This document shows, in pieces, positions 3,497-59,955 of a stretch of DNA of 59,955 nucleotides. Every line of letters starts with the position of its first letter. Position 1 is the first letter of the stretch. The DNA comes from a virus: the IMG/VR virus record IMGVR_UViG_3300047409_000695, positions 1-59,955 of that record; one strand, 5' to 3'. The position numbers and the translations under genes were made by a program. A model generated the notes under the pieces. The model made no database searches, had not been told where the DNA came from, and saw only the letters and a program-made list of their open reading frames with translations.

Positions 3497-4690
3497 CTAC
3501 ACCTTCACCACGCCGAACTCGACGTTGCCGGCGGTCGTCGGGTCAGGCAGTAAGGACACATTCGCGAAGTTCCACGGCGCGTTGCCGTTCGTCGGATCCC
3601 CGTTCAAGGCCTCGAGGTAGTAGAGCGTCGAGCCGTTCGTGGCGGGCACGTTCGCGCTTTGACTGAGCGTGTCGCCGGCAAAGGTGCCCGTCACAATCTT
3701 TCGGACCAACCGCCCGAGGTTCACGCCGGCCGCGTTCGCCTGCACGCGCGCCGCCCATTGCACGCCGTAGAGCGGCCAAGGCGTCCCGTTCGAGAAGTAT
3801 CCCCAGGCCGTCCCATCCGGCTGGACCGTGCCGGCTCGAGGATGCCGGAAGACGTACGAATCTCTCATGCCGGCCGTCGGTCCCAGGTTGAACGCGGACC
3901 CGCTCGAGTCGTTCGCTTGCCTCGAATTGATCTGCGTGTAGTTTGTCGGCTGCCCGAGCGCCGTCGACCACTTCGTATTCCCGACGGTCAGGTTCGGGCC
4001 GTCGGCCGTCGCCAACATCGCCTGAATACTCATGTTGCCGAGGAAGTCGGCCAGGTGCGTGACGGTGCCATCCCGACGGGCGATCCCGCCGACCGGTAGC
4101 GTCGCGTTGCCGTCGAGCACGTATACGTCCGAGATATTGAACGTGCCGGCCTCGACACCCGACGCCCCGAACTGAAAACCCGTATACGTGTTGGCGACCG
4201 CAGGAAAGAGCGTCTGGGCGACCACCGACGTGTTGACGCGGACGATGACGGACCCGGCACCACTCCCGGCATTCGCGTTCCATTGAAATTCGACGTACGC
4301 CCCGACGGCCGCGCGCACCGTCGACGCCGGCGAGATCGCGATAGCCCCGACGACGCCGGACCGCAAGACCTGCAGTTGCCCGGTCGGCGTGACCTGTAGC
4401 GTCAGCGTGAGTCCGGCCGACAGCGTGAGCTTGAAGATCGTGAACGCGTTCGGCCCTGGAATCGTGAGCGGTCGTAGGGCGAAGCCGATCGTGAAGAGGT
4501 TCCCGCCGGCACCGAAGGCCGACGGCGTGACGGTTCTGGTGACGTTGGCGGTCAGGGCACCGTTGAAGAAGAGCGCGGCGCCCCCGAGTCGACCGGCCGC
4601 GGCCACGACGGTGACGTTATTCGCCGTGCTGTACTTCGTGGCGATTTGGGCCGTCGTGTAGTGGTTGGTCGAGTCGAGGAAAAGGATCAT
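3497..4690 (-). CDS. LamG/concanavalin-like structural protein (397 aa)
   Basis: The first ~210 residues are a run of short beta-strands with the pattern of a laminin-G/concanavalin jelly-roll: 'SAFGAGGNLFTIGFAL', then 'TLTLQVTPTGQL', 'AYVEFQWNANAG' and 'NISDVYVLDG'. Such domains are common in phage tail and decoration proteins, where they bind glycans. The C-terminal ~180 residues are less clear ('NDSSGSAFNLGPTAGMRDS'). The gene is 2 nt from the 599-aa gene and clearly in the same operon. A role in surface or carbohydrate contact is inference. Confidence 0.65.
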   Translation of the reverse strand: MILFLDSTNHYTTAQIATKYSTANNVTVVAAAGRLGGAALFFNGALTANVTRTVTPSAFGAGGNLFTIGFALRPLTIPGPNAFTIFKLTLSAGLTLTLQVTPTGQLQVLRSGVVGAIAISPASTVRAAVGAYVEFQWNANAGSGAGSVIVRVNTSVVAQTLFPAVANTYTGFQFGASGVEAGTFNISDVYVLDGNATLPVGGIARRDGTVTHLADFLGNMSIQAMLATADGPNLTVGNTKWSTALGQPTNYTQINSRQANDSSGSAFNLGPTAGMRDSYVFRHPRAGTVQPDGTAWGYFSNGTPWPLYGVQWAARVQANAAGVNLGRLVRKIVTGTFAGDTLSQSANVPATNGSTLYYLEALNGDPTNGNAPWNFANVSLLPDPTTAGNVEFGVVKV

Positions 4691-6669: not shown

Positions 6670-7458
6670 CTACTGGCTCTGATACCGAACCAGAACGCCT
6701 GGCGTGTTCGTGATGGTCGCCGATGTCGTCGTATTCAGCAAGGCCACGGTCAGCAGCAACTGCTTCAGGTCGGTGGCAAACGGCAGCGTGCCGGTCGCCG
6801 GCGTGAACCGCTGGCTGACGAACGCGCCGGCGGTCGTCGTCGTGATGTTCGCAGACCCGCACACCGGCAAGTTTGTTGCCGTGCCTGAATCCGCCCTGAC
6901 AGGTGTGACAGTCGACGGTGTTTCGCCGGCTACCGGCGTCGGATACGTGATCGTCGAGAAGACGATGGCGCCGTTCCACGTTCCGGACGCGGGCACACAC
7001 GCCTGCGTGCCAAGGTTCGTGGTCTGAATGCCATACATGAAGTCGGCGCTCAGTACCTGTAACCCCGTGCCGGACGTCACGATGACGGACGGCGGCGTGA
7101 TGTTACAGACGAAGGTGTGCGTGTTCGGACCGCCCGCTGCGGTCGTCGACACCTGGCTGACGGCGGTCAAGGATGCACCGGCGGTCGTCAGACCGTTCGT
7201 GCCGCCCAGTGTGCCGGCCGTGCTGCCCTGGCACGCGCCAGGCGGTACCCAGTAGTTGTACGGGTTCGCGTTGCTCAGCCCCTGCGCGTGCAGGATGCCC
7301 ATGACCCGATCGAGCAGATGCACTCGAGGACTGAGGTCGACCGACTGGGCGACCGGAAACGGCGTCGGCTTTGGCGGCGCCGGAACGGGCCAGCAGACGA
7401 ACGCGACCGCCGCGAGCACTGCGGCCACCGACAGAACCTTCAACCTTGTGAAACGCAT
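6670..7458 (-). CDS. beta-rich virion protein with N-terminal hydrophobic signal-like segment (262 aa)
   Basis: Residues 1-25 form a basic start plus a hydrophobic stretch (VLSVAAVLAAVAFVCWP), resembling a Sec signal peptide or membrane anchor. Pro-rich sequence follows (PAPPKPTPFP), then a Gly/Thr-rich beta domain with four or more cysteines. Being between capsid and tail genes suggests a virion or assembly protein, yet the N-terminus suggests export or membrane tethering. The cleavage site is not obvious. No specific family is recognised. Confidence 0.55.
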   Translation of the reverse strand: MRFTRLKVLSVAAVLAAVAFVCWPVPAPPKPTPFPVAQSVDLSPRVHLLDRVMGILHAQGLSNANPYNYWVPPGACQGSTAGTLGGTNGLTTAGASLTAVSQVSTTAAGGPNTHTFVCNITPPSVIVTSGTGLQVLSADFMYGIQTTNLGTQACVPASGTWNGAIVFSTITYPTPVAGETPSTVTPVRADSGTATNLPVCGSANITTTTAGAFVSQRFTPATGTLPFATDLKQLLLTVALLNTTTSATITNTPGVLVRYQSQ

Positions 7459-13944: not shown

Positions 13945-16166
13945 CACTGTCTCCCGTACGGCCGACGGAGCGGCCCCAGCGTCGCTTTCCCTCGCGGCGT
14001 GCGCTCTACTTGCAGCGCCAGCGCGTTCCCCGTGTCGACCGCCTGTAGGCCGGGCGACCACGTTGCGTAGTGGCCAACGCCCTGCAGCATGTGCGCCGTG
14101 TCCTCGCGGGCTTCCGGCATGTACTGCGGCAGGTTCCGCCGATAGCTCGTGCTCCGACGTGCGTCCGGGGGGTCGAGACTGAAGATGATAAACCCCAGCG
14201 CCATCACGCGGTCGTCTTTCGTGTTGTACGCGGCGCGCGCCGACACTTCTTCGGGATCGCGCTCGAGCGTCGCGAGCTCGCCGACCAGCCAGTAAGACCC
14301 GATGTCGAGGCACTCTTCGTCGATCAGCGTCAGGAACTTGTCCATCATCATCGAACGGAACCAGACGTTCGTGAACACTCCGAATTTGTGCACCTTGCCG
14401 TCGGGAATCTGCCGCTTGTTGTCGTACTTTTTCCACGGATGGAAATTCGTCCAGCCGCGGGACTGCATCTGTGACTGGACGATCTCGCCGTTGCCCTTGC
14501 ACTCGACGGCGACTCGGCACTGCGTCCGTCGACCGACCTTCGGGTTGAACACCGAATAGAAGCACGCTAGCGCCAGGGCCATCGGCCACAACTGATCGGC
14601 CTTCACGTACGGGCTCGCGAACTCGGCGCACTGCCCGAACGGTCGATCGGCTGAGAACTTTCGCGCGACCTCGAGTACCGACCAGTCCTCGCCGATGCCG
14701 TCCGACGTGTCGACGCCGAGGCCGTACGTTTCCCCGTCTTCTGGGAACTCGTAGATGAACAGCTTGAACATCGGGTCGTAGCCGGCGTAGCCGTCGAATT
14801 TCAGTGGGATGAACTGATAGACCTCAGTCGATCGGATGACGCCGGCGACGCGGACCGTGATGATCGGCGGGGCGTCCGGGCCGATCCACCACTGATTCTG
14901 GGGCGGAATCAGCGACCGATGAATCCCGGAGCCGATGATCGCATACACCCCGAGCGGTGGTCGGACCTGCTCCCGGTAGTTCAGGATCACGTCCTGATCG
15001 ACGACCGAGACCCCGGTGTTCTGGAAGGCTTCCTGATCGTCCGCCGGCATCTCGGCCAGGAACTTGTTCAGGGTCTTCTTCCGGATCGCCATGTCGCGCT
15101 CGAGCTCGTAGAACCACATCTGCTCCCGGGGCATCTGCCAATCGCGGTCGCCTTTCGCCAAGTGTTTCAGCAACGAAGGACGCGAGAGCACGTAAGCCCT
15201 CGCACGTTCGGCATGGTGAATCGTCCGGTCGCTGGGCACCCAGTCGCGCGGAATCGGCCGGGCGCGCAGGTCGGTCGGCGTCGGGTAGATGTCGATGCCC
15301 ACAAACCACGGCAAAAACTCGCCGCGGAGCCTCGATCGTCCTCGAGGCCATTCCGTCTTGACGATCTCCCAGGAGTCCGCCCACCAGTTGTCGCGGCCGA
15401 GCGCCGTCGACTCGAGCGACACGAAGACGTCCGGCGTTTCGTGGACGGCGCGAATGAATGACGAGTCGATGTCCTCTTCCGCGTTGTCCCATGACGAGAC
15501 CTCCGACAACTGGCCGACGTTCGGCGTGGCGCCTCGAGCGACCCCATGGAACTGGTTGCCGGCCTGAATCGACAACCGGGTGTTGATGGCGCCGAACTCG
15601 ACGATCATGTTCTTCTCGAACTTGTCCTTCGCCGAGCTCGGGAGCAACCACCACGGTTGTTCCTCGAGACAGAACTTGATCATCTGGCCCATCTCGACGG
15701 TCTTCTTCGGGTCGGCGGACGCCACGATCGCGTTGGTGCGCTGCCAGAACTGGAATCGGTGCGTGACGGCCATCTGATTGACCGTCGTGATCCCTAACTG
15801 CCGGGCCTTCAACTGCTGCAGCATGATGGCCAGGGCGAGCTCTTCGTGCTCGGCCCAGATATCCATCACGATCGACTGGGCGACGTTCGGCCGAAACGGC
15901 ACCACGTTCTTTTCCCAGTCGATGATGCGGGCGTAGTTCGAGGACCAGTACCGGAAATCGAGCGCACAGATCTTCCGCTCGTTCCGGATGAACTGCACTT
16001 CCTTTTCGTCCAGCCGGCGGATCAGCCGGCCGGTCTCTTTGTCGCGCAGGTCTTCGAAGTGCGAGATCGCGTCTTCGATTTGGCTTTCGGAGTGGTACTG
16101 CAGTTGCCAACCGACCTCGCGGCTGGCTTCCTCGATCATCTGGGCCGTGACGATCGGGCTATACAT
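13944..16166 (-). CDS. terL: terminase large subunit
   Basis: This 740-aa protein has the two-domain build of large terminases. An ATPase occupies the first ~430 residues, with a variant Walker A 'KARQLGITT' (residues 120-128) and 'SADPKKTVEMGQ' after it. An RNase H-like nuclease domain starts near residue 490 with 'LGVDTSDGIGEDWS' carrying the expected acidic residues, and a late 'KDDRVMALG' supplies a further Asp. It packages DNA into proheads through the portal. It overlaps the candidate small subunit upstream by 8 nt. Confidence 0.93.
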   Translation of the reverse strand: MYSPIVTAQMIEEASREVGWQLQYHSESQIEDAISHFEDLRDKETGRLIRRLDEKEVQFIRNERKICALDFRYWSSNYARIIDWEKNVVPFRPNVAQSIVMDIWAEHEELALAIMLQQLKARQLGITTVNQMAVTHRFQFWQRTNAIVASADPKKTVEMGQMIKFCLEEQPWWLLPSSAKDKFEKNMIVEFGAINTRLSIQAGNQFHGVARGATPNVGQLSEVSSWDNAEEDIDSSFIRAVHETPDVFVSLESTALGRDNWWADSWEIVKTEWPRGRSRLRGEFLPWFVGIDIYPTPTDLRARPIPRDWVPSDRTIHHAERARAYVLSRPSLLKHLAKGDRDWQMPREQMWFYELERDMAIRKKTLNKFLAEMPADDQEAFQNTGVSVVDQDVILNYREQVRPPLGVYAIIGSGIHRSLIPPQNQWWIGPDAPPIITVRVAGVIRSTEVYQFIPLKFDGYAGYDPMFKLFIYEFPEDGETYGLGVDTSDGIGEDWSVLEVARKFSADRPFGQCAEFASPYVKADQLWPMALALACFYSVFNPKVGRRTQCRVAVECKGNGEIVQSQMQSRGWTNFHPWKKYDNKRQIPDGKVHKFGVFTNVWFRSMMMDKFLTLIDEECLDIGSYWLVGELATLERDPEEVSARAAYNTKDDRVMALGFIIFSLDPPDARRSTSYRRNLPQYMPEAREDTAHMLQGVGHYATWSPGLQAVDTGNALALQVERTPRGKATLGPLRRPYGRQ

Positions 16167-16767
16167 CAGCGTCCACGTCGACGGACCGCTCGGGCGGCGT
16201 GCGCTCGAGTAATCGACGCTGGACGCGGTCCTTTGCCGGATGCAGGTCTTCCATGTCGTCCAGAAAGCTCGGGACGGACGCGTCAGAACTAGTCACGGCT
16301 GCGGCTGCGGCTTTCGATTCGGCGTTGGCGTTCGCGTTGACGTTGATCGTCTGCCCGTGCGGCGATGGCAGGAACCCGCCGTGCTGCAAGACCTTGTGTC
16401 GATCAAGCATCGCGATCTGGGCGTGCGGTCCGCCAATCCGCGTCGCCGACTTCATCATCTGGCGAACGACCCTCGGCGCGAACGCGGCGTAGACCATCTC
16501 ACTGGTCTGACTGTTGATCAGCATCGCGGCGCTGACGGCCGCGGCCATGAGCTCGTTCGGATGCACGCCGGCGACCATGGCGACCTCATCGAACGGCACG
16601 ACGTTCTGCTCACGGTCGCTCAGCGTCTGCCAGATCTGCCAGAACGCGACGCCGACCGGATCTTGGCTTTGCGCGGAGAGATAGACGGCCTCAATGAACT
16701 TCTTCCGGCCGATGAATTTCGTGGCTTCCGACAACGGCCGCATCCCTTTGACGGTCTGCAGCGTCAT
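16159..16767 (-). CDS. candidate terminase small subunit (202 aa)
   Basis: I place the start at the ATG at 16767 (MTLQTVKGMRPL...), because an upstream extension would overlap a coiled-coil gene in another frame. Residues 5-130 are helical and include 'VPFDEVAMVAGVHPNELMAAA', compatible with a helix-turn-helix. An Ala/Asn low-complexity region (NVNANANAESKAAAAA) and an acidic tail follow. Its position directly before terL with an 8-nt overlap is the main support. Confidence 0.5.
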   Translation of the reverse strand: MTLQTVKGMRPLSEATKFIGRKKFIEAVYLSAQSQDPVGVAFWQIWQTLSDREQNVVPFDEVAMVAGVHPNELMAAAVSAAMLINSQTSEMVYAAFAPRVVRQMMKSATRIGGPHAQIAMLDRHKVLQHGGFLPSPHGQTINVNANANAESKAAAAAVTSSDASVPSFLDDMEDLHPAKDRVQRRLLERTPPERSVDVDADV

Positions 16768-16781
16768 CTTCTGCTTGCGGG

Positions 16782-17057
16782 CTACACGTTGGAGTTTTCG
16801 TTGGGTACGATCGTAGCCGGTACTTCGTTCGAGTCCGACCGCTTCCGGCGCGCGTCCTCCTGAATCCGCGTTTCCCGGGTGGCCCGGTACACGTTTTTCT
16901 CCGTCACCTTGTCCGTCGACCGCCTCGCTGAAAAAGCACGTATCGGGGAATCGTCGAGTACGACTCCGCATTTCGATAACAGGGCTCGGAGCGCGGCGTT
17001 CTCCCGTTTCAGGCTTTCGATCAGGCCGTCCTTCAGTTGACCCTTGGTCTTCCACAC
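16782..17057 (-). CDS. small coiled-coil protein (91 aa)
   Basis: The N-terminal 28 residues form a heptad-patterned helix (LKDGLIESLKRENAALRALL). A charged, disordered region rich in Arg/Asp/Glu follows. It ends 14 nt before the candidate small terminase start and follows a basic protein gene by 12 nt. A regulatory or packaging-accessory role is conceivable. No family is recognised. Confidence 0.5.
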   Translation of the reverse strand: MWKTKGQLKDGLIESLKRENAALRALLSKCGVVLDDSPIRAFSARRSTDKVTEKNVYRATRETRIQEDARRKRSDSNEVPATIVPNENSNV

Positions 17058-17069
17058 CGTCCACCTGTC

Positions 17070-17333
17070 CTATCGGCGCTTGCCGCCGCGTCGACGGGCG
17101 CGGCCACGACGCCCGCGGCCTGATTTCGGATCACGACCCGCCATCGACCGCCCGACGCGAGACAGCGCGTCCATCTGCTCGCCGTGGGCACGCGTCGCGC
17201 CCTGCATCCGGCCTTTGTCGCCGCGGATCTCTTCGGCGCGCGTGAGCGTCCGGAGATCGTCTTCGGCCCGGTACTTGTCGTGTTCTTTCGACTGGACCGG
17301 ACTCGCCAGGTTCTTGCCTTTGTCTTTTTTCAT
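17070..17333 (-). CDS. basic protein with Arg/Gly-rich C-terminus (87 aa)
   Basis: The protein starts MKKDKGKNLASPV, has a charged helical middle, and ends in a dense Arg/Gly tail (GRGRRGRARRRGGKRR). Its start overlaps the stop of the 60-aa basic gene upstream (ATGA), so both are translated together. The tail resembles a protamine- or histone-like nucleic-acid-binding end. It joins three other small basic proteins in the packaging/head cluster. Confidence 0.55.
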   Translation of the reverse strand: MKKDKGKNLASPVQSKEHDKYRAEDDLRTLTRAEEIRGDKGRMQGATRAHGEQMDALSRVGRSMAGRDPKSGRGRRGRARRRGGKRR

Positions 17334-17512
17334 CGACGGCCTCGACGGCTGCGTTTACGACCTTTTTTCCGGCCCACGCGTTCCGGCAGTTTCTTGCCCT
17401 TCGACGCTCGAGCGCGGCCGACCGCGTCTTCCATCGAAACCTCGCCGCGGTTGGCCTTCGCGAACATCAGCCGTTGCTGGGCCTTGCTCTTGTTCTGGCT
17501 GAACGGCGGCAT
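17330..17512 (-). CDS. basic protein with Lys/Arg-rich C-terminus (60 aa)
   Basis: The N-terminal part (MPPFSQNKSKAQQRLMFAK...) resembles a short motif often seen in small phage and bacterial proteins beginning 'SK.QRRLMF.a'. The C-terminus is strongly basic (ERVGRKKGRKRSRRGRR). It is the first gene after a 165-nt gap containing a perfect hairpin, so it may start the packaging transcription unit. A nucleic-acid-binding role is inferred from charge. Confidence 0.55.
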   Translation of the reverse strand: MPPFSQNKSKAQQRLMFAKANRGEVSMEDAVGRARASKGKKLPERVGRKKGRKRSRRGRR

Positions 17513-17530
17513 CGGTTCCTTCTGGCCTTG

Positions 17531-17560
17531 GCCCGGTGAACGATGGTCTGTTCACCGGGC
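17531..17560. terminator. perfect 11-bp stem-loop in the 17513-17677 gap
   Basis: GCCCGGTGAAC at 17531-17541 is the exact reverse complement of GTTCACCGGGC at 17550-17560, with an 8-nt loop. It lies between the stop of the 286-aa gene and the start of the 60-aa basic gene. No T-run follows on either strand, so it is either a rho-independent-like attenuator of weak type or a 5'-UTR structure. A possible -10 (TACAAA on the minus strand) lies just upstream. Confidence 0.45.
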
Positions 17561-17677
17561 TTCGGCTCTTTGTAATGGCGCCAGCGGGTACGTTGCCACG
17601 AACTCAGTTACGGACGATCCCGCCTTTTTCTACACATCCCGGTTTCCCGGAGTGCGCCTGCTCGTTGGGGTATAGCG

Positions 17678-18538
17678 CTACAGCCCCAGTGGCGGCAGGT
17701 CCGCCATCAACGGGCCGAATTTTCCTTGTGTCACGATCCGTCGGCCCGGTACCTCGAGGCCTAGTTGCTCGCGGAGCGCGTCCGGCGGCGTCTCGACCTC
17801 GCCGGTTTCGTCAAACTCTCGACGTTCCCGCTTCAGCACGAACACGACCTTGTCGCAGTACTGCTCGGCGATCTCTTCGGGCAGCGCTTCCTTCTGGCGG
17901 ATCATCGTGATGTCGAAGCTCTGATCGCCGGCTTCAGCCTCGACGGTCACAACCAGTTTCACGGCGTACCGCGGATACGACGCGGCGACGCCGAACCGCA
18001 GGTCCGACGTCAACTGGGGCGCGAGTTCGTCCATCAGTTGTTTGATCGTCTCGGCGATCTCCGTACCGTCCAGCGCGAAGTACTCGCCGGCGCCGCCGCC
18101 GAAACCGCCCGTGACCTCGAGCGGGTTCTTACTGCGGTGCGCTGAGTACGCCGTGCCTGGTATCCCGCGGGCCGGACCGGCGTTCACCGGATCTTCCTCG
18201 AGGGACGCGGCCGGACGTGTGAGATCGGCGGGTCGCTGATGTGGGGGAGCGCTGGCGGCGATGACGCTGGGCGGCGTCTGGACGGTGTGGGCCGCGGCGA
18301 CGACGCCGTTACCCGATCCCGGGGCGCCGGTCGCCTTCAGCGGTTCAAGCTGGCGTTCGTTCTGTCGGGCCATCTCGGCCGGCGTCCGCACGACGCCCGT
18401 CGGTAGACCGGTCTCGCGAGAGAACTCGTGGATCGCGCCGGCATCATGCTGCAACGGCTGCGTCGGCTGCATCGGCGCGTCTGGGGGCGGTACGGCACCG
18501 ATCGTGCCTGTCGGCGGAAGTGGTTCAGTCGTTCGCAT
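17678..18538 (-). CDS. Pro/Ala-rich protein with folded C-terminal domain (286 aa)
   Basis: The ATG at 18538 (MRTTEPLPPTGT) is preferred, because upstream codons lie inside the HNH gene. The first ~130 residues are disordered (Pro, Ala, Thr). The C-terminal ~150 are alpha/beta, including 'YPRYAVKLVVTVEAEAGDQS' and acidic stretches. It overlaps the HNH gene by 14 nt. The function is unknown. It heads the late cluster, so an assembly or regulatory role is possible. Confidence 0.55.
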   Translation of the reverse strand: MRTTEPLPPTGTIGAVPPPDAPMQPTQPLQHDAGAIHEFSRETGLPTGVVRTPAEMARQNERQLEPLKATGAPGSGNGVVAAAHTVQTPPSVIAASAPPHQRPADLTRPAASLEEDPVNAGPARGIPGTAYSAHRSKNPLEVTGGFGGGAGEYFALDGTEIAETIKQLMDELAPQLTSDLRFGVAASYPRYAVKLVVTVEAEAGDQSFDITMIRQKEALPEEIAEQYCDKVVFVLKRERREFDETGEVETPPDALREQLGLEVPGRRIVTQGKFGPLMADLPPLGL

Positions 18539-30127: not shown

Positions 30128-30355
30128 ATGAGACCGAATCGATCCCGCATTGCCCTGGCTGCCGTCCTGCTCGCCGTCCTGGCCTCGAGCGCCGTTGCTC
30201 AGTCGAAGGTGTACGTGTCGGCGAGCGGGAAGAAGTACCACACGCACGCCGACTGCCGAGCGCTGAAGTCCTCGACGGTCAAAACGATCGACCTGAAAGA
30301 CATCGGCGATCGGACGCTTTGCGCGATCTGCGCACACCGGAAAGCCGGCAAGTGA
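30128..30355 (+). CDS. small exported Cys protein (75 aa)
   Basis: Residues 1-24 are a Sec signal peptide (NRSRIALAAVLLAVLASSAV, cut after AVA before Gln). The mature part is about 50 residues and has 'GKKYHTHADCRALK' and 'LCAICAHRK', a His/Cys set resembling a small metal site. It would act in the periplasm or outside. A role in superinfection exclusion or host surface change is possible but unsupported. Confidence 0.6.
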   Translation: MRPNRSRIALAAVLLAVLASSAVAQSKVYVSASGKKYHTHADCRALKSSTVKTIDLKDIGDRTLCAICAHRKAGK

Positions 30356-46988: not shown

Positions 46989-47063
46989 TGGCTGGCCAGG
47001 GTGGATTCGAACCACCGACTTTCCGGTTAACAGCCGGACGTTCTGCCGCTGAACTACCGGCCA
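46989..47063 (-). tRNA. tRNA-Asn (anticodon GTT)
   Basis: On the minus strand the cloverleaf is complete. It has an acceptor stem TGGCCGG/CTGGCCA with one G-T pair, D arm GTTC/GAAC, anticodon arm TCCGG-CTGTTAA-CCGGA with GTT, T arm GGTGG-TTCGAAT-CCACC, discriminator G and an encoded CCA. It is 75 nt long including CCA. It lies between the last ejection-module gene and the recombination promoter. It is the only tRNA I see. Confidence 0.92.
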
Positions 47064-53406: not shown

Positions 53407-53643
53407 CTACGGCGGGGTCGGTTTGCCCGTCAGCCCCGTGATGTTCAACGGATGCGTCCCCGTCGCCGACAACGACTTCTGCACTTGCGCGAGTTGTGCC
53501 GGCGTAAACTGGTCGGCGCTCTTCCCGAATTTCTGTAACGCGACGATCGACTCTTCCAACTGGTTGATGTACCGCTGCGCTTTCTGCAGGGCATCCCGTG
53601 TCGTGCCGTCGACGCCGGAGAGCGATCCGAGGTCGAGTGGCAT
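53407..53643 (-). CDS. small coiled-coil protein (78 aa)
   Basis: The protein MPLDLGSLSGVDGTTRDALQ continues with a helix 'KAQRYINQLEESIVALQKFG' and a Thr/Pro tail. It shares a 1-nt overlap with the stop of the 618-aa fibre-like gene. It may be a fibre chaperone or trimerisation partner. No family is recognised. Confidence 0.5.
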   Translation of the reverse strand: MPLDLGSLSGVDGTTRDALQKAQRYINQLEESIVALQKFGKSADQFTPAQLAQVQKSLSATGTHPLNITGLTGKPTPP

Positions 53644-55499
53644 TACTGCAACGTCACGCCCGACGCATTGGCGTTCTGAAGTTCAGCGACCGTCATGACC
53701 GTGTGGTTGTTCGAGCCGCCGCCGCCCTTCGTGACCGTCACGTTCACAGTAAACGTCTGAGTGGCGCCAACGCCACCCGCAACCGCCGATACCGCGTAGG
53801 CCAGCGTTTCCGTCGTGGCACCCGCGACGCACGAGGTTGCGGTAATTGCCGCAGTCGCTGCAGTCGCCACAGTCGCCACACCTGTCGTCCGAGTAATGAC
53901 AATGTTGCCCTCGAGGATGTTCGTGCACTCGTTCGCACCGATGGCGCCCCCAGCGCCCAGCGAGCCGGCGACACGAACATGCAGGTTCGCCGACTGAGCC
54001 GCGTTCGGAATCGAGACCGTGAACGTCGGCGTCGACACCCCGTCGGCCAACCCGGTCGTCGCATACGTCTTCGTGGCCGTCGTCGTCGCCGCACCGGCGA
54101 CCGCCGTACCACCGACGACCGTCGACGTCGTCGCGCCCAAGGTCGTGATAAGCGGCGAGGCCGTGTACGCCGGCACCGTGCCGACACCGCCAGACGCGAG
54201 CACCTGGCCCACCGCGACGTCGGCCAGCGAGCCGATCGTGTTCGCCCCCGTGGCGACCATCAGATCGCCCTGCGTCGCCGCGTTCGGCAGGACCAGGGTC
54301 GAGCAGATCGGGTCCGCCCCCGTGGCGCCGCGGACGTACGTGCCGTTCGTGCAGACCGCCATCGGCGTGATGGCACCGGTCCCCTCGCCGAGCAGGATGC
54401 CGTGTGCGGTCAACGTCGTGGCGCCAGTGCCCCCAAACGGCACCGTGATGGCCGTTCCGTTCCAGACCCCGGTCGAGATCGTCCCGACCGTCGACAACGA
54501 CGCCAGGGCTGTGACCGTGGTCGTGACCAGTGTGCCCGCGGTCGGTAGTGTCAGGTTCGTGGGCGCCGTGACGGTCAGGACCGTCGCAAAGGCGCCGGAG
54601 AAGGTCAGGGCGCCGCCCAGCGACACCGCCTTACCGCCGATCTGTCCAACGGTCGTCGCCAGCGTCGCGCCCGCACTGGTGACGTCACCGGTCAGAGCAG
54701 GGAAGTTCGCCGCGAGGATCGTGCCGGTCAACTGAGCGGCCGGCAAAGCCGTCAGGTTCGCCCCTGACAGCGACGAAAAGAACGTGCCGGTCAGCGTCAA
54801 CTGCGGCGAGACCGTCGTCTTGACGGTCGCCCGACCTTTCGCGTCGAAGGTAATCTGCGGAATCGCCGTCGCCGATCCAACGGTTCCCGCGCCGACGCCG
54901 GTCGTGGCCAAGGTCGTGACGAGTGACGCGCCTGGCGTCGTGATGTCTCCGGTCAGCGCGGGGAAGTTTGCCGCCGGCAACTGGCCCGAGATCGTGGCCC
55001 CTGTAACCGACGCACACGTTGTCGTGCCCGTGGAACTGATGGTCGTGACGAACTGATTCACGCACGCCGACGATCCCGGGTAGATCGACAGCACGCCGGT
55101 ACCGGTCGTATTGAAGACCAGGCCCGAAGCCAGCACGCCGAGGATCTGGGCGTTCGCCGGCGCGTTCGTCGACGTCTGCACGATGTAGGTGCCGGCGCCG
55201 TTCGCGCCGCCCGCCGGCGCCGTCCACGCGCCGCCGTTGTTCTTGATCTCGATCGTGCCGTTGTTGTCTCGGACGCCGTAGCCGTTCACGCCGCGGAGCG
55301 TGCCGTACGACAGGTACCCGTTGGCGACGATCGCCGCGTTGTTGAACGCGTACGTGATCCCGCTCGAGGTCGAGCCGAACCGGAGCAGGTTCCAAAAGTT
55401 GTTGATCTGGGCCGTGACGACCGACTGGGCCTGCGGCGTCGCCGACACCACGCCCAGCAACAGGGCGACGACAGCGAGCGCTCGCAGGCGGTTGGTCAT
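53643..55499 (-). CDS. fibre-like repeat protein with signal peptide (618 aa)
   Basis: Residues 1-25 form a signal peptide (RLRALAVVALLLGVVSATPQ, cut near PQA-Q). Next comes 'VTAQINNFWNLLRFGSTSSG', a block shared with the 436-aa protein. The body is made of beta repeats, such as 'AANFPALTGDITTPGASLVT' and 'AANFPALTGDVTSAGATLAT', plus a Gly/Thr-rich shaft ('FGGTGATTLTAHGILLGEGT'), like trimeric tail fibres. The C-terminus is strand-rich. An exported fibre is unusual. Surface attachment is the likely role. Confidence 0.65.
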   Translation of the reverse strand: MTNRLRALAVVALLLGVVSATPQAQSVVTAQINNFWNLLRFGSTSSGITYAFNNAAIVANGYLSYGTLRGVNGYGVRDNNGTIEIKNNGGAWTAPAGGANGAGTYIVQTSTNAPANAQILGVLASGLVFNTTGTGVLSIYPGSSACVNQFVTTISSTGTTTCASVTGATISGQLPAANFPALTGDITTPGASLVTTLATTGVGAGTVGSATAIPQITFDAKGRATVKTTVSPQLTLTGTFFSSLSGANLTALPAAQLTGTILAANFPALTGDVTSAGATLATTVGQIGGKAVSLGGALTFSGAFATVLTVTAPTNLTLPTAGTLVTTTVTALASLSTVGTISTGVWNGTAITVPFGGTGATTLTAHGILLGEGTGAITPMAVCTNGTYVRGATGADPICSTLVLPNAATQGDLMVATGANTIGSLADVAVGQVLASGGVGTVPAYTASPLITTLGATTSTVVGGTAVAGAATTTATKTYATTGLADGVSTPTFTVSIPNAAQSANLHVRVAGSLGAGGAIGANECTNILEGNIVITRTTGVATVATAATAAITATSCVAGATTETLAYAVSAVAGGVGATQTFTVNVTVTKGGGGSNNHTVMTVAELQNANASGVTLQ

Positions 55500-55550
55500 A
55501 TCAGCATCCTGGCGGAATGGGCCGGTGCAGTACGAGATACAACATCTTGA

Positions 55551-56009
55551 TTAACGGCCAAAAAATCCCACCGGGGCAACCGGACCCGCCGGAACTGGAT
55601 TGACCGTCAAGGCGAAAGGGTTCGATTTCAGCGACTCCTTCGCGTTGCACGTCGGCCCCAGCACACAGTTCGCACCGGTCGCCGTGACCTGCAACGTGTG
55701 CGTGCCCGTCGTCGACGGCACGATCCACGGTCCCGTAAACTGCGACAGGTTCGTCACCGTCGACGTCGCGCCCTTCGTCATCGCGAGCGCGGTCGCCACG
55801 CCGTTGTCGTACACCGTCCAGCCCGTGATCACCACCAACGGCGTGCCATCCGTCGCGGTCGGTGCCAAACAGGCCGAGAACTGGATCGTCGAATTGACGA
55901 CGGCCGTACCGGTTGCCGGGGTCGTGTTCGGGTTGTCGCAGGGGTTCTGCGCGAACGCGCCCGTCGCGTAGAGCAGAGCAAGTAGTGTCAGTCCGAGTAG
56001 CCGTCGCAT
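55551..56009 (-). CDS. small exported Ig-like protein (152 aa)
   Basis: A clear signal peptide is present (MRRLLGLTLLALLYATGAFA, then QNPCD). The mature ~130 residues form a beta sandwich-like pattern with two Cys pairs ('STIQFSACLAPTATDGTPLV', 'GANCVLGPTCNAKESLKSNP'). Phage Ig-like proteins often decorate virions and bind surfaces weakly. It lies between two fibre-like genes. Small intergenic gaps (18-51 nt) surround it. Confidence 0.6.
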   Translation of the reverse strand: MRRLLGLTLLALLYATGAFAQNPCDNPNTTPATGTAVVNSTIQFSACLAPTATDGTPLVVITGWTVYDNGVATALAMTKGATSTVTNLSQFTGPWIVPSTTGTHTLQVTATGANCVLGPTCNAKESLKSNPFALTVNPVPAGPVAPVGFFGR

Positions 56010-56027
56010 CGTCGTCTCCTTGTCGCG

Positions 56028-57338
56028 TTACGAAATCTGCTGTATCGAACACTCGTGGTTGTAAACGGCCGTGCTCGGCGTCCCTGTCGTGGACACCGTG
56101 ATCGCCGTCGCCGCCTGGGCACGGATGACGATCGGGACGCCGTAGTAGCCGACCGTTCCCGCGGCCGTCAGCACGTTCGTCACCGTCCCGCCTGCCGCCA
56201 ACTGCCATACGACCGCCACTGACCGCGCCGTGCCTTCCTCTGTCTTGAACGCAATCGTGCCGTTCATGTTCGTGGCGGCGCCCGCGGTCGTGACAAGGAT
56301 GTAGTCCCAGACCTCAAACGTGCCGTCGGCGGCTGGGGTAAAGGTGCAACGGTTGGCGTCGAGTGAACTGGTGATGGCGACGCCGCGACCACTCTGTAGG
56401 ACGTACGGTACGCCGGAACCGGTCGTCGTCAGGTTGTTGTAGGCCGTGATCTTCGCGCCGATATCTAGGTTGCCGGTGCCCGCGGTCAACGCTCGGCCGC
56501 GGAGCTTCAGCGTGCTGTCTGTCGCTACATCGATCCCGATGCCGGCCGCGCCAGCCCCGTTCGACATGACGAGTTGGCCGTCAGTCGCGCCGTTGAGCGC
56601 CCACGTAAATTTATTCGTGCCGCCGCTCTGTAGATGCAACGTGGCGCTGTTGAACCAGACGTTCGACCCGTCCATCGCGATCGGCTGATTACCATTGACG
56701 CACAACCGCTGCGTCGTCCCATCCCACGACAGCCCACCGTTCAGGGCACCAATGAACGCGTAAGAGGTCGCCGCACAGTTACCGCTGGCGATGGCTTGGA
56801 CCTGACCGCTATTGGCCATGAGCAACCCGGTAGAGTTGATCCTGACCCGCTCGCCAGCGATGCCGTCCGTCGTGTTCGTGAAGAACCTTGTGCTACAGCC
56901 AGTTGGAGTCGCCGAGAAGCACGACACGATGTCCCAGCCAGGAGTACCGTTCGTACAGCCGACGCCGCAGTTGTCGTACAACGTCGCCCGTTGAGGCTCA
57001 GTAGTGACGTTGAGACCTTGAGCCGAGATACACCCAACCGAAGTGTCTGACCTGAAACACCCTTCCGCGGACGCCGCGTTGCCCGCGTTATTGTTCCACC
57101 ACAAAAACTGCACGTTGCTGTTCTGGTTGAAGACCGCGCTGAACGGGTGCCCAGCGTCCGGCGTGCCCGCCCCCATCTTGATAAAGGTGCCGACGTTCAA
57201 CGTCGTGAATGAGATCGAGCCCGTCCGGAGCAGGTTCCAAAACTGCTGAATCTGGGCCGTGAACGTCTGCGCGTGCAGGTCGACGCCGGCAACCAATAGA
57301 CCGATCAAGACCGCGAGTACGAATCGACGCTTCGTCAT
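56028..57338 (-). CDS. fibre-like protein with signal peptide (436 aa)
   Basis: The signal peptide is MTKRRFVLAVLIGLLVAGVD, cut near LHA-Q. 'FTAQIQQFWNLLRTGSISFT' follows, matching the N-terminal block of the 618-aa protein. The body is beta-rich with 'SGVPYVLQSGRGVAITSSLD' and several cysteines around residues 90-150. The C-terminal ~100 residues may form a receptor-binding head. The shared block after the signal peptide suggests a common anchor. Confidence 0.62.
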   Translation of the reverse strand: MTKRRFVLAVLIGLLVAGVDLHAQTFTAQIQQFWNLLRTGSISFTTLNVGTFIKMGAGTPDAGHPFSAVFNQNSNVQFLWWNNNAGNAASAEGCFRSDTSVGCISAQGLNVTTEPQRATLYDNCGVGCTNGTPGWDIVSCFSATPTGCSTRFFTNTTDGIAGERVRINSTGLLMANSGQVQAIASGNCAATSYAFIGALNGGLSWDGTTQRLCVNGNQPIAMDGSNVWFNSATLHLQSGGTNKFTWALNGATDGQLVMSNGAGAAGIGIDVATDSTLKLRGRALTAGTGNLDIGAKITAYNNLTTTGSGVPYVLQSGRGVAITSSLDANRCTFTPAADGTFEVWDYILVTTAGAATNMNGTIAFKTEEGTARSVAVVWQLAAGGTVTNVLTAAGTVGYYGVPIVIRAQAATAITVSTTGTPSTAVYNHECSIQQIS

Positions 57339-57347
57339 GCCTACTCC

Positions 57348-57854
57348 TTAGTACGACTGCATCGGCTCGAGCCAGAACGTCGCATTGACCGCCCCGCCCG
57401 CGCCGGCACTCTTCGCGACCGTGTCGACATTCTGGGCGGCGACGTGCAGCGTCGGCGGGTTGACCGTGTTGATCGTGTCGAGGTCGACGTACGGAATCGC
57501 CAGGCCGTCGATGTAGAACCGGAACAGTCCGCCGCCGAGCGCGACTGAGTTGAACTGCTGGCCCTGCACAGTCGCGAACTGAAAGCGGCTGATGAACCCG
57601 TCGGTGCCGATGACGTTCGTTAGTCCGGTCGCCGAGTTGAAGAAATCGAACTCTAGGCCGACCTGCTGCACACATAGATACTCGATCGCTCGAATGAGGA
57701 AGCGCCTCGAGGCAATCGCCGGCACGCCCGGAATATTGTTCATGGCCGTGCCGACAAAGGGCGGCGTGTTGAAGCCGGCCGCGGCACCCAGGGCCTCGAG
57801 GAAGTTGACCGTCGGCAGCGCGTTGACCGGATACAGGAAGCTCTGAGGCATCAT
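57348..57854 (-). CDS. tail-associated protein (168 aa)
   Basis: The protein starts MMPQSFLYPVNALPTVNFLE, with no cleavable signal. The middle is a beta region with 'QQVGLEFDFFNSATGLTNVI' and 'GGGLFRFYIDGLAIPYVDLD'. It lies between the large tail gene and the first fibre-like gene, so a fibre-connecting or tail-tip part is likely. No family is recognised. Confidence 0.5.
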   Translation of the reverse strand: MMPQSFLYPVNALPTVNFLEALGAAAGFNTPPFVGTAMNNIPGVPAIASRRFLIRAIEYLCVQQVGLEFDFFNSATGLTNVIGTDGFISRFQFATVQGQQFNSVALGGGLFRFYIDGLAIPYVDLDTINTVNPPTLHVAAQNVDTVAKSAGAGGAVNATFWLEPMQSY

Positions 57855-57860
57855 GCACTC

Positions 57861-59955
57861 CTAAAACGGACGGACGATCTGGTAGCCGCCAGGCTCACCC
57901 CACACGTTGACCCACGCTTCGAAGTCCTGATCGAACAACATGAACGGCGTCGCCGACTGAAAGCCGTACTGGAACGCCATCCCCTTCACTGACTGCAGGA
58001 TGACCGGTATTTTCGCATAGATGCCCCCGGACGACGGCAAGTTATACGTCAGCACGTTCCCGTCGACGATCAGACTGAAGACCACCGGACTGGTCGAGAG
58101 GTAAGCGACGACGATCTGCTTGCACTGCTGGAAGCTCCGTTGCCCGTGGGCGGTCGGACCACTCAACCAACTAGATGCGAGCTCCGGCGCCGTCTGGAAG
58201 GCCACATCCCAGGCGTACAGGATGGTCGGCGTCGCGGTCGGCGCCCATTGCACGACCGTCGTTAGGTTCGTGCCGAAGTTTCCGGTCTGCAGCGTCGCGT
58301 TGATGTCCTGCTGCGTGCGCGTCGGTCCCGCGCCGGCGAGCGCGACGGGCGCCAGGACGGCGGTGTTATTCGTGAACCCGATCGTGACCGAGACCGGATC
58401 GAGGTTCTGGCCGTCGAGCATCAGATCCCGATACAGCTTCTGCCGGCGGGTGTCCTTCTGGTTCTCTACCCATTGAAGCGTCGACGTGAACGCGACGCCG
58501 TTGTCGGTGATGCCCGCCGGCGTCGACAGTGCCCCGCTCGCCTGGCCGATCAGCATCTGGTGCACGGACTGGCCGACACCGGCCGCTCGAGCCGACACGC
58601 CCGACGCGTACGTGTCGTAGTGCCACGACCCATCGAGCTCTCGGTACCCGAGCGAATGAGCGACGCCGTTGATATCGCGGTAGTCGAAATACACCCAGCC
58701 GTCGATCGCGTTCAACTGCAGGATCGTCCCTGCCATGTTCGGCGGTTGGATCCCGTTGACGGCGACCCCGGCCTGGCCATCGTGCGGGAAGATCGGATAC
58801 AGGTCGTCGTCTGTCACCATGACGGCTCGGCTGCCGCCCTTCGTGACCGCGATGCCGTCTTTCGTGAGGAAGTACGTGCCTTTCAACCCGTGGCAGAAGG
58901 CCCAGCGCGTCCAGAACCCCCGTCCACAGTCCGTCACCAACGGCACGAACGTCGACACCTGCCCGAAGGTCGGCTCGAGACGATAGATGTCTTCCGTCGA
59001 TGCCACGTACGACACGCCGTCGTCCATGAATCCGGCCATGAGCGGTTCGTTCGCCGGCGTGACGTCGAGCGTGTTCTTGTCCGAGGCCGTTTCCGGGTCG
59101 TTGCCGTTCGTCCAGTGAACCTGGCCCGGGTTGATCGAGTCCGCACACCCGAAGAGGAACGTGGCGCCGGCGATCGGACCGCCCCAGGCGGACGCGATGA
59201 CCTGATTCAGCAACGTCGCGCCTTTGACCGTAAAGGCCTGCGCGTTCAGGTTCCCGATGTTCTCGTTCGTGAAGAGCAGGTTCGTCGACGGCGGTTGCGA
59301 GTACAGGGTGTACGTGTTCCCGTTGATGATGATCTCGGAACCCGGTGCCCAGTTGACGTTGAACGGATCGCCGCTGACCCGAACGACCGCGTTGCCCGCG
59401 TAGTTGCACACCCCGCTATGTGGCGCGTCCTGCGTCGGCCAGGGCGGGAAGTTGTTGTAGTCCGGAGTCTCCCCGCCGCTGATCGCCGAATCCGAATAGT
59501 CGTGGTTGTACGGTTGCCCGCTCGGCACCGTCCCGCCGTACGTCCAACGATTCAGCGTCGCGCCGAGGATGAACCAATCGACCAGGTCGGCCTGCGGGTC
59601 CGGCGAGACCGTGTGGTTGAAGACGATCCGCTGACGCTTGGCGGGCACGCCCCCGCGCAACGGCGGTGAGAAGTTACTACGCCCGCCGGTCAACGAGGAC
59701 CGGTACCGGTACATCCCGACGTACGGGATCGCCGTCACGCCCGAGTCCGGTCCGAAGCCGCCCGTGATCGACAGGCCATCCCAGTCGACTGAGATCGGAT
59801 TCGGGCCGGTCTGATGCACCAAGAGTTCGACGGCCGTAACGTTCGCCAGCGACAGCGACGGGTCCGTGCCGACCCGCTGCAGGTCTCGAATCTTGCACCG
59901 GAGCTCGAGCCACTGCAGGTTGCCGAGTGCCAGCATCTTCGAGCCGGCTTGCGCG
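57861..59955 (-). CDS. tail nozzle / tail tubular protein B-like protein, C-terminal part (continues from base 1698)
   Basis: This is the remaining ~690 codons of the 1221-aa tail protein whose start is at base 1698 after circularisation. An internal ATG at 59936 is in frame but is not the real start. The sequence is beta-rich with repeated aromatic-Gly turns, for example 'DGWVYFDYRDINGV' and 'RELDGSWHYDTY'. These suggest propeller-like blades, as in podoviral nozzle proteins. The stop is 6 nt before the next gene (168 aa), so they are probably cotranscribed. The product could also be a large receptor-binding or baseplate-like protein. Confidence 0.72.
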   Translation of the reverse strand, partial: AQAGSKMLALGNLQWLELRCKIRDLQRVGTDPSLSLANVTAVELLVHQTGPNPISVDWDGLSITGGFGPDSGVTAIPYVGMYRYRSSLTGGRSNFSPPLRGGVPAKRQRIVFNHTVSPDPQADLVDWFILGATLNRWTYGGTVPSGQPYNHDYSDSAISGGETPDYNNFPPWPTQDAPHSGVCNYAGNAVVRVSGDPFNVNWAPGSEIIINGNTYTLYSQPPSTNLLFTNENIGNLNAQAFTVKGATLLNQVIASAWGGPIAGATFLFGCADSINPGQVHWTNGNDPETASDKNTLDVTPANEPLMAGFMDDGVSYVASTEDIYRLEPTFGQVSTFVPLVTDCGRGFWTRWAFCHGLKGTYFLTKDGIAVTKGGSRAVMVTDDDLYPIFPHDGQAGVAVNGIQPPNMAGTILQLNAIDGWVYFDYRDINGVAHSLGYRELDGSWHYDTYASGVSARAAGVGQSVHQMLIGQASGALSTPAGITDNGVAFTSTLQWVENQKDTRRQKLYRDLMLDGQNLDPVSVTIGFTNNTAVLAPVALAGAGPTRTQQDINATLQTGNFGTNLTTVVQWAPTATPTILYAWDVAFQTAPELASSWLSGPTAHGQRSFQQCKQIVVAYLSTSPVVFSLIVDGNVLTYNLPSSGGIYAKIPVILQSVKGMAFQYGFQSATPFMLFDQDFEAWVNVWGEPGGYQIVRPF
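59829..59955. repeat. 127-bp terminal direct repeat (right copy)
   Basis: This is the second copy of the end overlap, identical to bases 1-127. It should be removed once when the genome is circularised. A genuine short direct terminal repeat cannot be excluded from sequence alone, but the exact 127-nt length argues for an assembly origin. Confidence 0.95.

Follow-up and report, generated by a model that had tools for sequence, protein, structure and literature searches.

Tailed phages are taught to assemble entirely within the cytoplasm, a reducing space in which structural disulfides are avoided. The host Sec pathway is used by tailed phages for endolysins, with a signal that is either cleavable or retained (PMC6116005). 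In bacteria, exported proteins favour even numbers of cysteines, a preference tied to disulfide formation (PMC7678975). The closest phages with which the present locus can be compared are Tunturi 1-5 (PMC11924767): Tunturi 1, 2, 4, and 5 carry fibres or spikes with signal peptides (SPs), like the DNA described here, and the main text of the paper on these phages does not mention signal peptides.

Signal peptide genes in the tail module

The virus record analysed (the window) is 59,955 bases long, and its ends, positions 1-127 and 59829-59955, form a 127-bp direct terminal repeat. This repeat, together with a virion gene that continues from one contig end to the other, shows that the podophage genome is complete. 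The late genes lie on the minus strand and encode terminase, a P22-like portal, capsid, adaptor, an SU10-adaptor-like protein, and a nozzle-like protein of ~1220 aa, after which come proteins of 168, 436, 152, 618, 78, 220, 493, and 761 aa (Table 1). The 168-, 436-, 152-, and 618-aa genes form a tight late operon with intergenic gaps of 9, 18, and 51 bases, and the adjacent C-terminal part of the nozzle-like gene places the SP genes within the tail module. Between the adaptor-region and SU10-adaptor-like genes lies a gene for a 397-aa protein (3497-4690, minus strand; 70% identical in the nearest relative) that has neither an SP nor any Cys and is a candidate for an ordinary receptor-binding protein. 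The window also contains a single tRNA gene, tRNA-Asn (GTT), at 46989-47063 (minus strand).

Table 1. Positions in the window of the SP genes, their parts, and neighbouring genes (a slash marks the predicted cut)
Feature	Position	Strand	Remark
Nozzle-like virion gene, ~1220 aa	59936-57861 joined to 1698-1	-	spans contig ends
C-terminal part of nozzle-like gene	57861..59936	-	691-aa ORF is this part only
168-aa gene, directly upstream of 436-aa gene	57348..57854	-	without SP; 68% identical in L003
436-aa SP fibre-like gene	56028..57338	-	mature part: 10 Cys
Signal peptide, 436-aa protein, residues 1-23 (VDLHA/Q)	57270..57338	-	rule-based prediction
Block QTFTAQIQQFWNLLRTGS, 436-aa protein, residues 24-41	57216..57269	-	putative docking helix
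C-terminal 140-residue domain, 436-aa protein	56031..56450	-	78% identical in G001 SP protein
152-aa SP protein	55551..56009	-	mature part: 4 Cys
Signal peptide, 152-aa protein, residues 1-20 (AFA/Q)	55950..56009	-	rule-based prediction
618-aa SP fibre gene	53643..55499	-	mature part: 6 Cys
Signal peptide, 618-aa protein, residues 1-24 (PQA/Q)	55428..55499	-	rule-based; site by analogy with 436-aa protein
Block QSVVTAQINNFWNLLRFGS, 618-aa protein, residues 25-43	55371..55427	-	aligned with 436-aa block

The only cultured relatives found are Tunturi 1 and 2, podophages of Tunturiibacter (Acidobacteriota), which have terminase, portal, capsid, adaptor, and nozzle in common with the window and are 25-36% identical to it in core virion proteins. 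This distant kinship is the sole pointer to the host of the window phage and suggests a member of the Acidobacteriota. The nearest relative of the window is an uncultured phage, L003, whose nozzle is 79% identical. The portal and neighbouring genes of this lineage also occur on a 4.5-kb contig (JACTVF010000236.1) that is assigned to a Methanoregulaceae MAG but probably stems from a phage and was misbinned.

A first, sequence-only reading had placed three genes for signal-bearing proteins of 436, 152, and 618 aa on the minus strand, and all three are present there. Their SPs are borne out by a rule-based predictor: each contains an n-, h-, and c-region and a -3/-1 cleavage site, with scores of 5.5-5.6. 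This predictor is a purpose-written rule set, not SignalP; it recovered 10/10 known E. coli SPs, and its background is 2 of 217 unrelated viral genes (≥140 aa) with scores >4.8. The predicted cleavages are MTKRRFVLAVLIGLLVAGVDLHA/QTFTAQIQQFWNLLRTGS in the 436-aa protein, MRRLLGLTLLALLYATGAFA/QNPCDN in the 152-aa protein, and MTNRLRALAVVALLLGVVSATPQA/QSVVTAQINNFWNLLRFGS in the 618-aa protein. For the last of these the rule set itself prefers VSA/TP, four residues before PQA/QS; the latter site is taken because Q then comes first, as in the other two proteins. A strong Shine-Dalgarno sequence, AAGGAG, is present at the 436 and 152 starts and a weaker AGGA at the 618 start, so that, given the small intergenic gaps as well, wrong start calls are unlikely. 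A second product without the SP, starting near the sequence block behind it, was considered and rejected for both of the larger genes, since the 436-aa gene has no ATG, GTG, or TTG between codons 15 and 47, and the 618-aa gene has none between codons 18 and 70.

Searches of Pfam, PHROGs, and the PDB return no match for the 436- or 152-aa protein and, for the 618-aa protein, one weak match to a PHROG of unknown function. AlphaFold2 yields no usable fold for the mature 436-aa protein (pLDDT 40) or the 152-aa protein (pLDDT 41); thus, the label "Ig-like" previously attached to the latter is not confirmed. None of the Tunturi SP proteins is a homologue of the 436-aa protein. The 618-aa protein has one module of Tunturi 4 gp113, a fibre module at residues 155-231 that also occurs in IMG/VR contig proteins.

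SPs are present on fibre- or spike-type tail genes in 6/6 podophages of the lineage in which the region is sequenced (the window, L003, two further uncultured phages, G008 and G010, and Tunturi 1 and 2). L003 has two SP genes, the tail modules of G008 and G010 have at least four and at least two, respectively, and Tunturi 1 and Tunturi 2 have five each. An 821-aa ORF of G010 with 22 Cys (15586-18051; contig L068:3586-6051) has a signal-like segment ~50 residues inside its called start, and may be a further SP spike whose start is miscalled. Outside the lineage, SPs are found on gp113 and gp114 of the siphovirus Tunturi 4 (genes at 83.6-87.3 kb) and on gp337, gp338, gp341, and gp342 of the jumbo myovirus Tunturi 5. 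SPs are absent from the portal, capsid, adaptor, and nozzle proteins of these phages. None were found among the late genes of Tunturi 3; as Tunturi 1 and Tunturi 3 share a host strain, the host cannot be what dictates the trait. When 50,697 phage records were queried with other Tunturi spike and fibre proteins, no SP fibre was seen outside the Tunturi phages among the matches checked.

The signal/mature boundary and the anchors behind it

The block TAQI(QQ/NN)FWNLLRxGS, which had been pointed out as common to the 436- and 618-aa proteins, is real: blastp aligns the two with 53% identity over 45 residues (E 4e-5 in a small set). L003 has the block unchanged in its two SP genes (L003_257 and L003_321). 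In the viral contigs searched it is absent outside the window and L003, the genome contigs searched contain no match, and neither collection provided a homologue of known function. AlphaFold2 models QTFTAQIQQFWNLLRTGS in the mature 436-aa protein as a helix with low confidence.

Comparison of the 436-aa gene with its L003 counterparts reveals an evolutionary border that coincides with the predicted A/Q site. Against L003_257, 15 of 22 codons of the signal are nonsynonymous, the signal having been exchanged for a different SP, and the next 18 codons contain 0 nonsynonymous and 6 synonymous changes. Against L003_321, the signal has a dN of 0.13 and a dS of 1.2, and is thus under purifying selection. 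The block has zero amino acid changes against either gene. Such a pattern is expected if the signal is constrained by its properties and the sequence after it by its contacts.

In several relatives the position behind the SP is occupied by a recognizable anchor. In Tunturi 1 gp12, G008_671, and G010_1573 the post-SP domain is homologous to the N-terminal anchor, ~70 residues long in the alignment, of conventional tailspikes from four enterobacterial phages (Serratia phage MTx, Klebsiella phage KA2-1, Erwinia phage Cronus, and Escherichia phage ECO1230-10), and the tail spike PDB 9vyg is a weaker match. Unlike the exported proteins, these four tailspikes have no SP, their anchor begins within the first ~15 residues, and they lack Cys at two positions that are invariant in the exported versions, one located in an added segment and one replacing Ala. 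A PDB profile search with the anchor domain returns tail spike N-termini only, weakly (9vyg, E 0.07). In Tunturi 5 gp337 and gp341 the post-SP motif is the opening motif of the SP-less Tunturi 4 gp112 (E 1e-4 and 2e-3; small set). In Tunturi 4 gp114 the spike module follows the SP directly, with no separate anchor. The tailspike anchor domain is absent from the mature N-termini of the window's proteins, where the unrelated FWNLLR block is found instead. Consequently, the term "anchor block" used in the sequence-only reading gains support by analogy, from the tailspike anchor or fibre N-terminal motif at the same place in relatives, and the window's block is probably a lineage-specific docking helix.

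Modules travel between phages, and the part behind the SP changes while the SP stays. The C-terminal domain of the 436-aa protein recurs in an SP protein of G001, an unrelated long-tailed phage, behind another mature N-terminal part. Similarly, Tunturi 4 gp114 has, immediately after its SP, a spike module 47% identical to that of Tunturi 1 gp17. The N-terminus is conserved and the C-terminus is variable and swapped between phages, as in receptor-binding proteins.

Cysteine signature

The number of Cys is even in 22/23 mature SP proteins (p = 3e-6), the exception having a single Cys, and their Cys content is 1.86% versus 0.48% in virion proteins without SPs (Mann-Whitney p 1e-10), although both p values overstate independence because the set was picked by hand and some of its members are homologous. 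The comparison set consists of 58 SP-less virion proteins from these phages and other Tunturi phages; among those with at least two Cys, the count is even in 25/40. SP-like proteins outside the Cys set are mostly small or of membrane type, and not all have even counts. A 262-aa protein encoded between the capsid and adaptor genes (6670-7458, minus strand) has a signal-like or membrane-anchor N-terminus, 5 Cys, and no family match. A 75-aa protein from outside the tail module (30128-30355, plus strand) has a clear SP followed by a short, Cys/His-rich mature part (YHTHADCRALK...CAIC) with 3 Cys.

By contrast, Tunturi 2 gp17, which is longer than Tunturi 1 gp17, has exactly two more Cys. In the fibre module of Tunturi 4 gp113 a Cys pair flanks a hairpin; no such Cys are present in SP-less relatives or in the 618-aa protein, whose near-neighbour Cys are at 146/162, 383/399, and 525/557. 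The earlier proposal that these fibre-like proteins are exported is thus well supported, also by Cys parity and content, on which that proposal did not draw, and we strongly infer Sec export with cleavage and disulfide formation from the sequence features.

Possible roles and known systems

In the explanation that we lean towards, with somewhat more confidence than doubt, the proteins would leave the cytoplasm by Sec, acquire disulfide bonds, and attach to virions at lysis as receptor-binding proteins. The two larger ones (436 and 618 aa) would be receptor-binding tail fibres, with the 152-aa protein as a small partner. All three would be made with cleavable Sec SPs and enter the periplasm, where signal peptidase I would cut the SP and folding with disulfide bonds would take place. 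Cleavage would expose QTFTAQIQQFWNLLRTGS at the mature N-terminus as a short docking helix, and the fibres would meet and dock on virions when lysis mixes the compartments. That they dock on the virion, and do so at or after lysis, is likely, and we hold it with moderate firmness: retention of the anchor sequences makes docking the most probable use, and the cytoplasmic assembly of capsid and tail makes lysis the most probable time. The data favour, without being decisive, virion docking at lysis over the options raised in the sequence-only reading, namely periplasmic assembly, decoration of the cell, or another function. More generally, some tailed phages, among all three tail types, may build their virions in two compartments, with capsid and tail made in the cytoplasm, receptor-binding fibres and spikes matured in the periplasm by SP removal and disulfide formation, and the two brought together at lysis by a docking sequence that signal peptidase exposes; we regard the chances of this as evenly balanced.

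The main rival to virion docking is a secreted, non-virion adhesin. Such adhesins, or proteins that bind or degrade polysaccharide, could coat the infected cell or its surroundings and there block further phage adsorption, keep progeny off debris, or loosen the matrix before release. The same export evidence, both the Cys signature and the evolutionary boundary, fits this alternative, as do the chitobiase C-terminal and beta-helix domains of Tunturi 1 gp17, the missing anchor of Tunturi 4 gp114, and the presence in the window of the SP-less 397-aa candidate. However, an anchor domain or fibre motif behind the SP would be purposeless in a free protein, unless it serves only for trimerisation, and the late genes of Tunturi 1 show no large spike candidate without an SP. 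We therefore consider secretion without docking unlikely, if far from negligible.

It is improbable that the SPs are leftovers of captured host secreted proteins with little present role. The cellular-type domains of Tunturi 1 gp17 and the differences in SP proteins among members of the lineage would agree with such an origin, but the purifying selection seen against L003_321, the exchange of the SP for another that is predicted to work rather than its loss, the position of the SPs before phage-type anchors, and the absence of the block from the genome contigs searched all speak against it. Least credible is that the N-termini stay uncleaved and serve either to attach the fibre to the tail or to insert into the host membrane during infection. 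Virion proteins with hydrophobic N-termini are known, and docking by such a segment had been named in advance as the finding that would overturn export. It fits poorly with AxA/Q-type sites in unrelated proteins, with Cys parity and enrichment, and with conservation that starts after the cleavage site: the signal turns over in sequence, whereas the block behind it does not.

If the preferred reading of export and docking is true, exported and oxidised fibres would mean that there is a second assembly compartment, phage adhesins could be present in the periplasm or at the surface of infected cells before lysis, and such phages would have a simple genomic mark, an SP plus even cysteines before an anchor. 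The readings are directly testable on the cultured phages Tunturi 1, 2, 4, and 5. No earlier report of SP tail fibres was found in open-access papers, which is weak evidence of novelty. Ordinary fibres and spikes have the same modular layout as the SP fibres, and to our knowledge no described tailed-phage fibre combines this layout with use of Sec. Sec is used, as here, by exported endolysins such as fOg44 Lys44 and the SAR endolysins of P1 and phage 21, but these are lysis enzymes rather than fibres or spikes. Exported bacterial proteins of the DsbA-substrate type likewise have an SP and an even number of Cys (PMC7678975); unlike them, the SP proteins described here are encoded in a phage tail module and, in relatives of the window phage, have a fibre or spike anchor.
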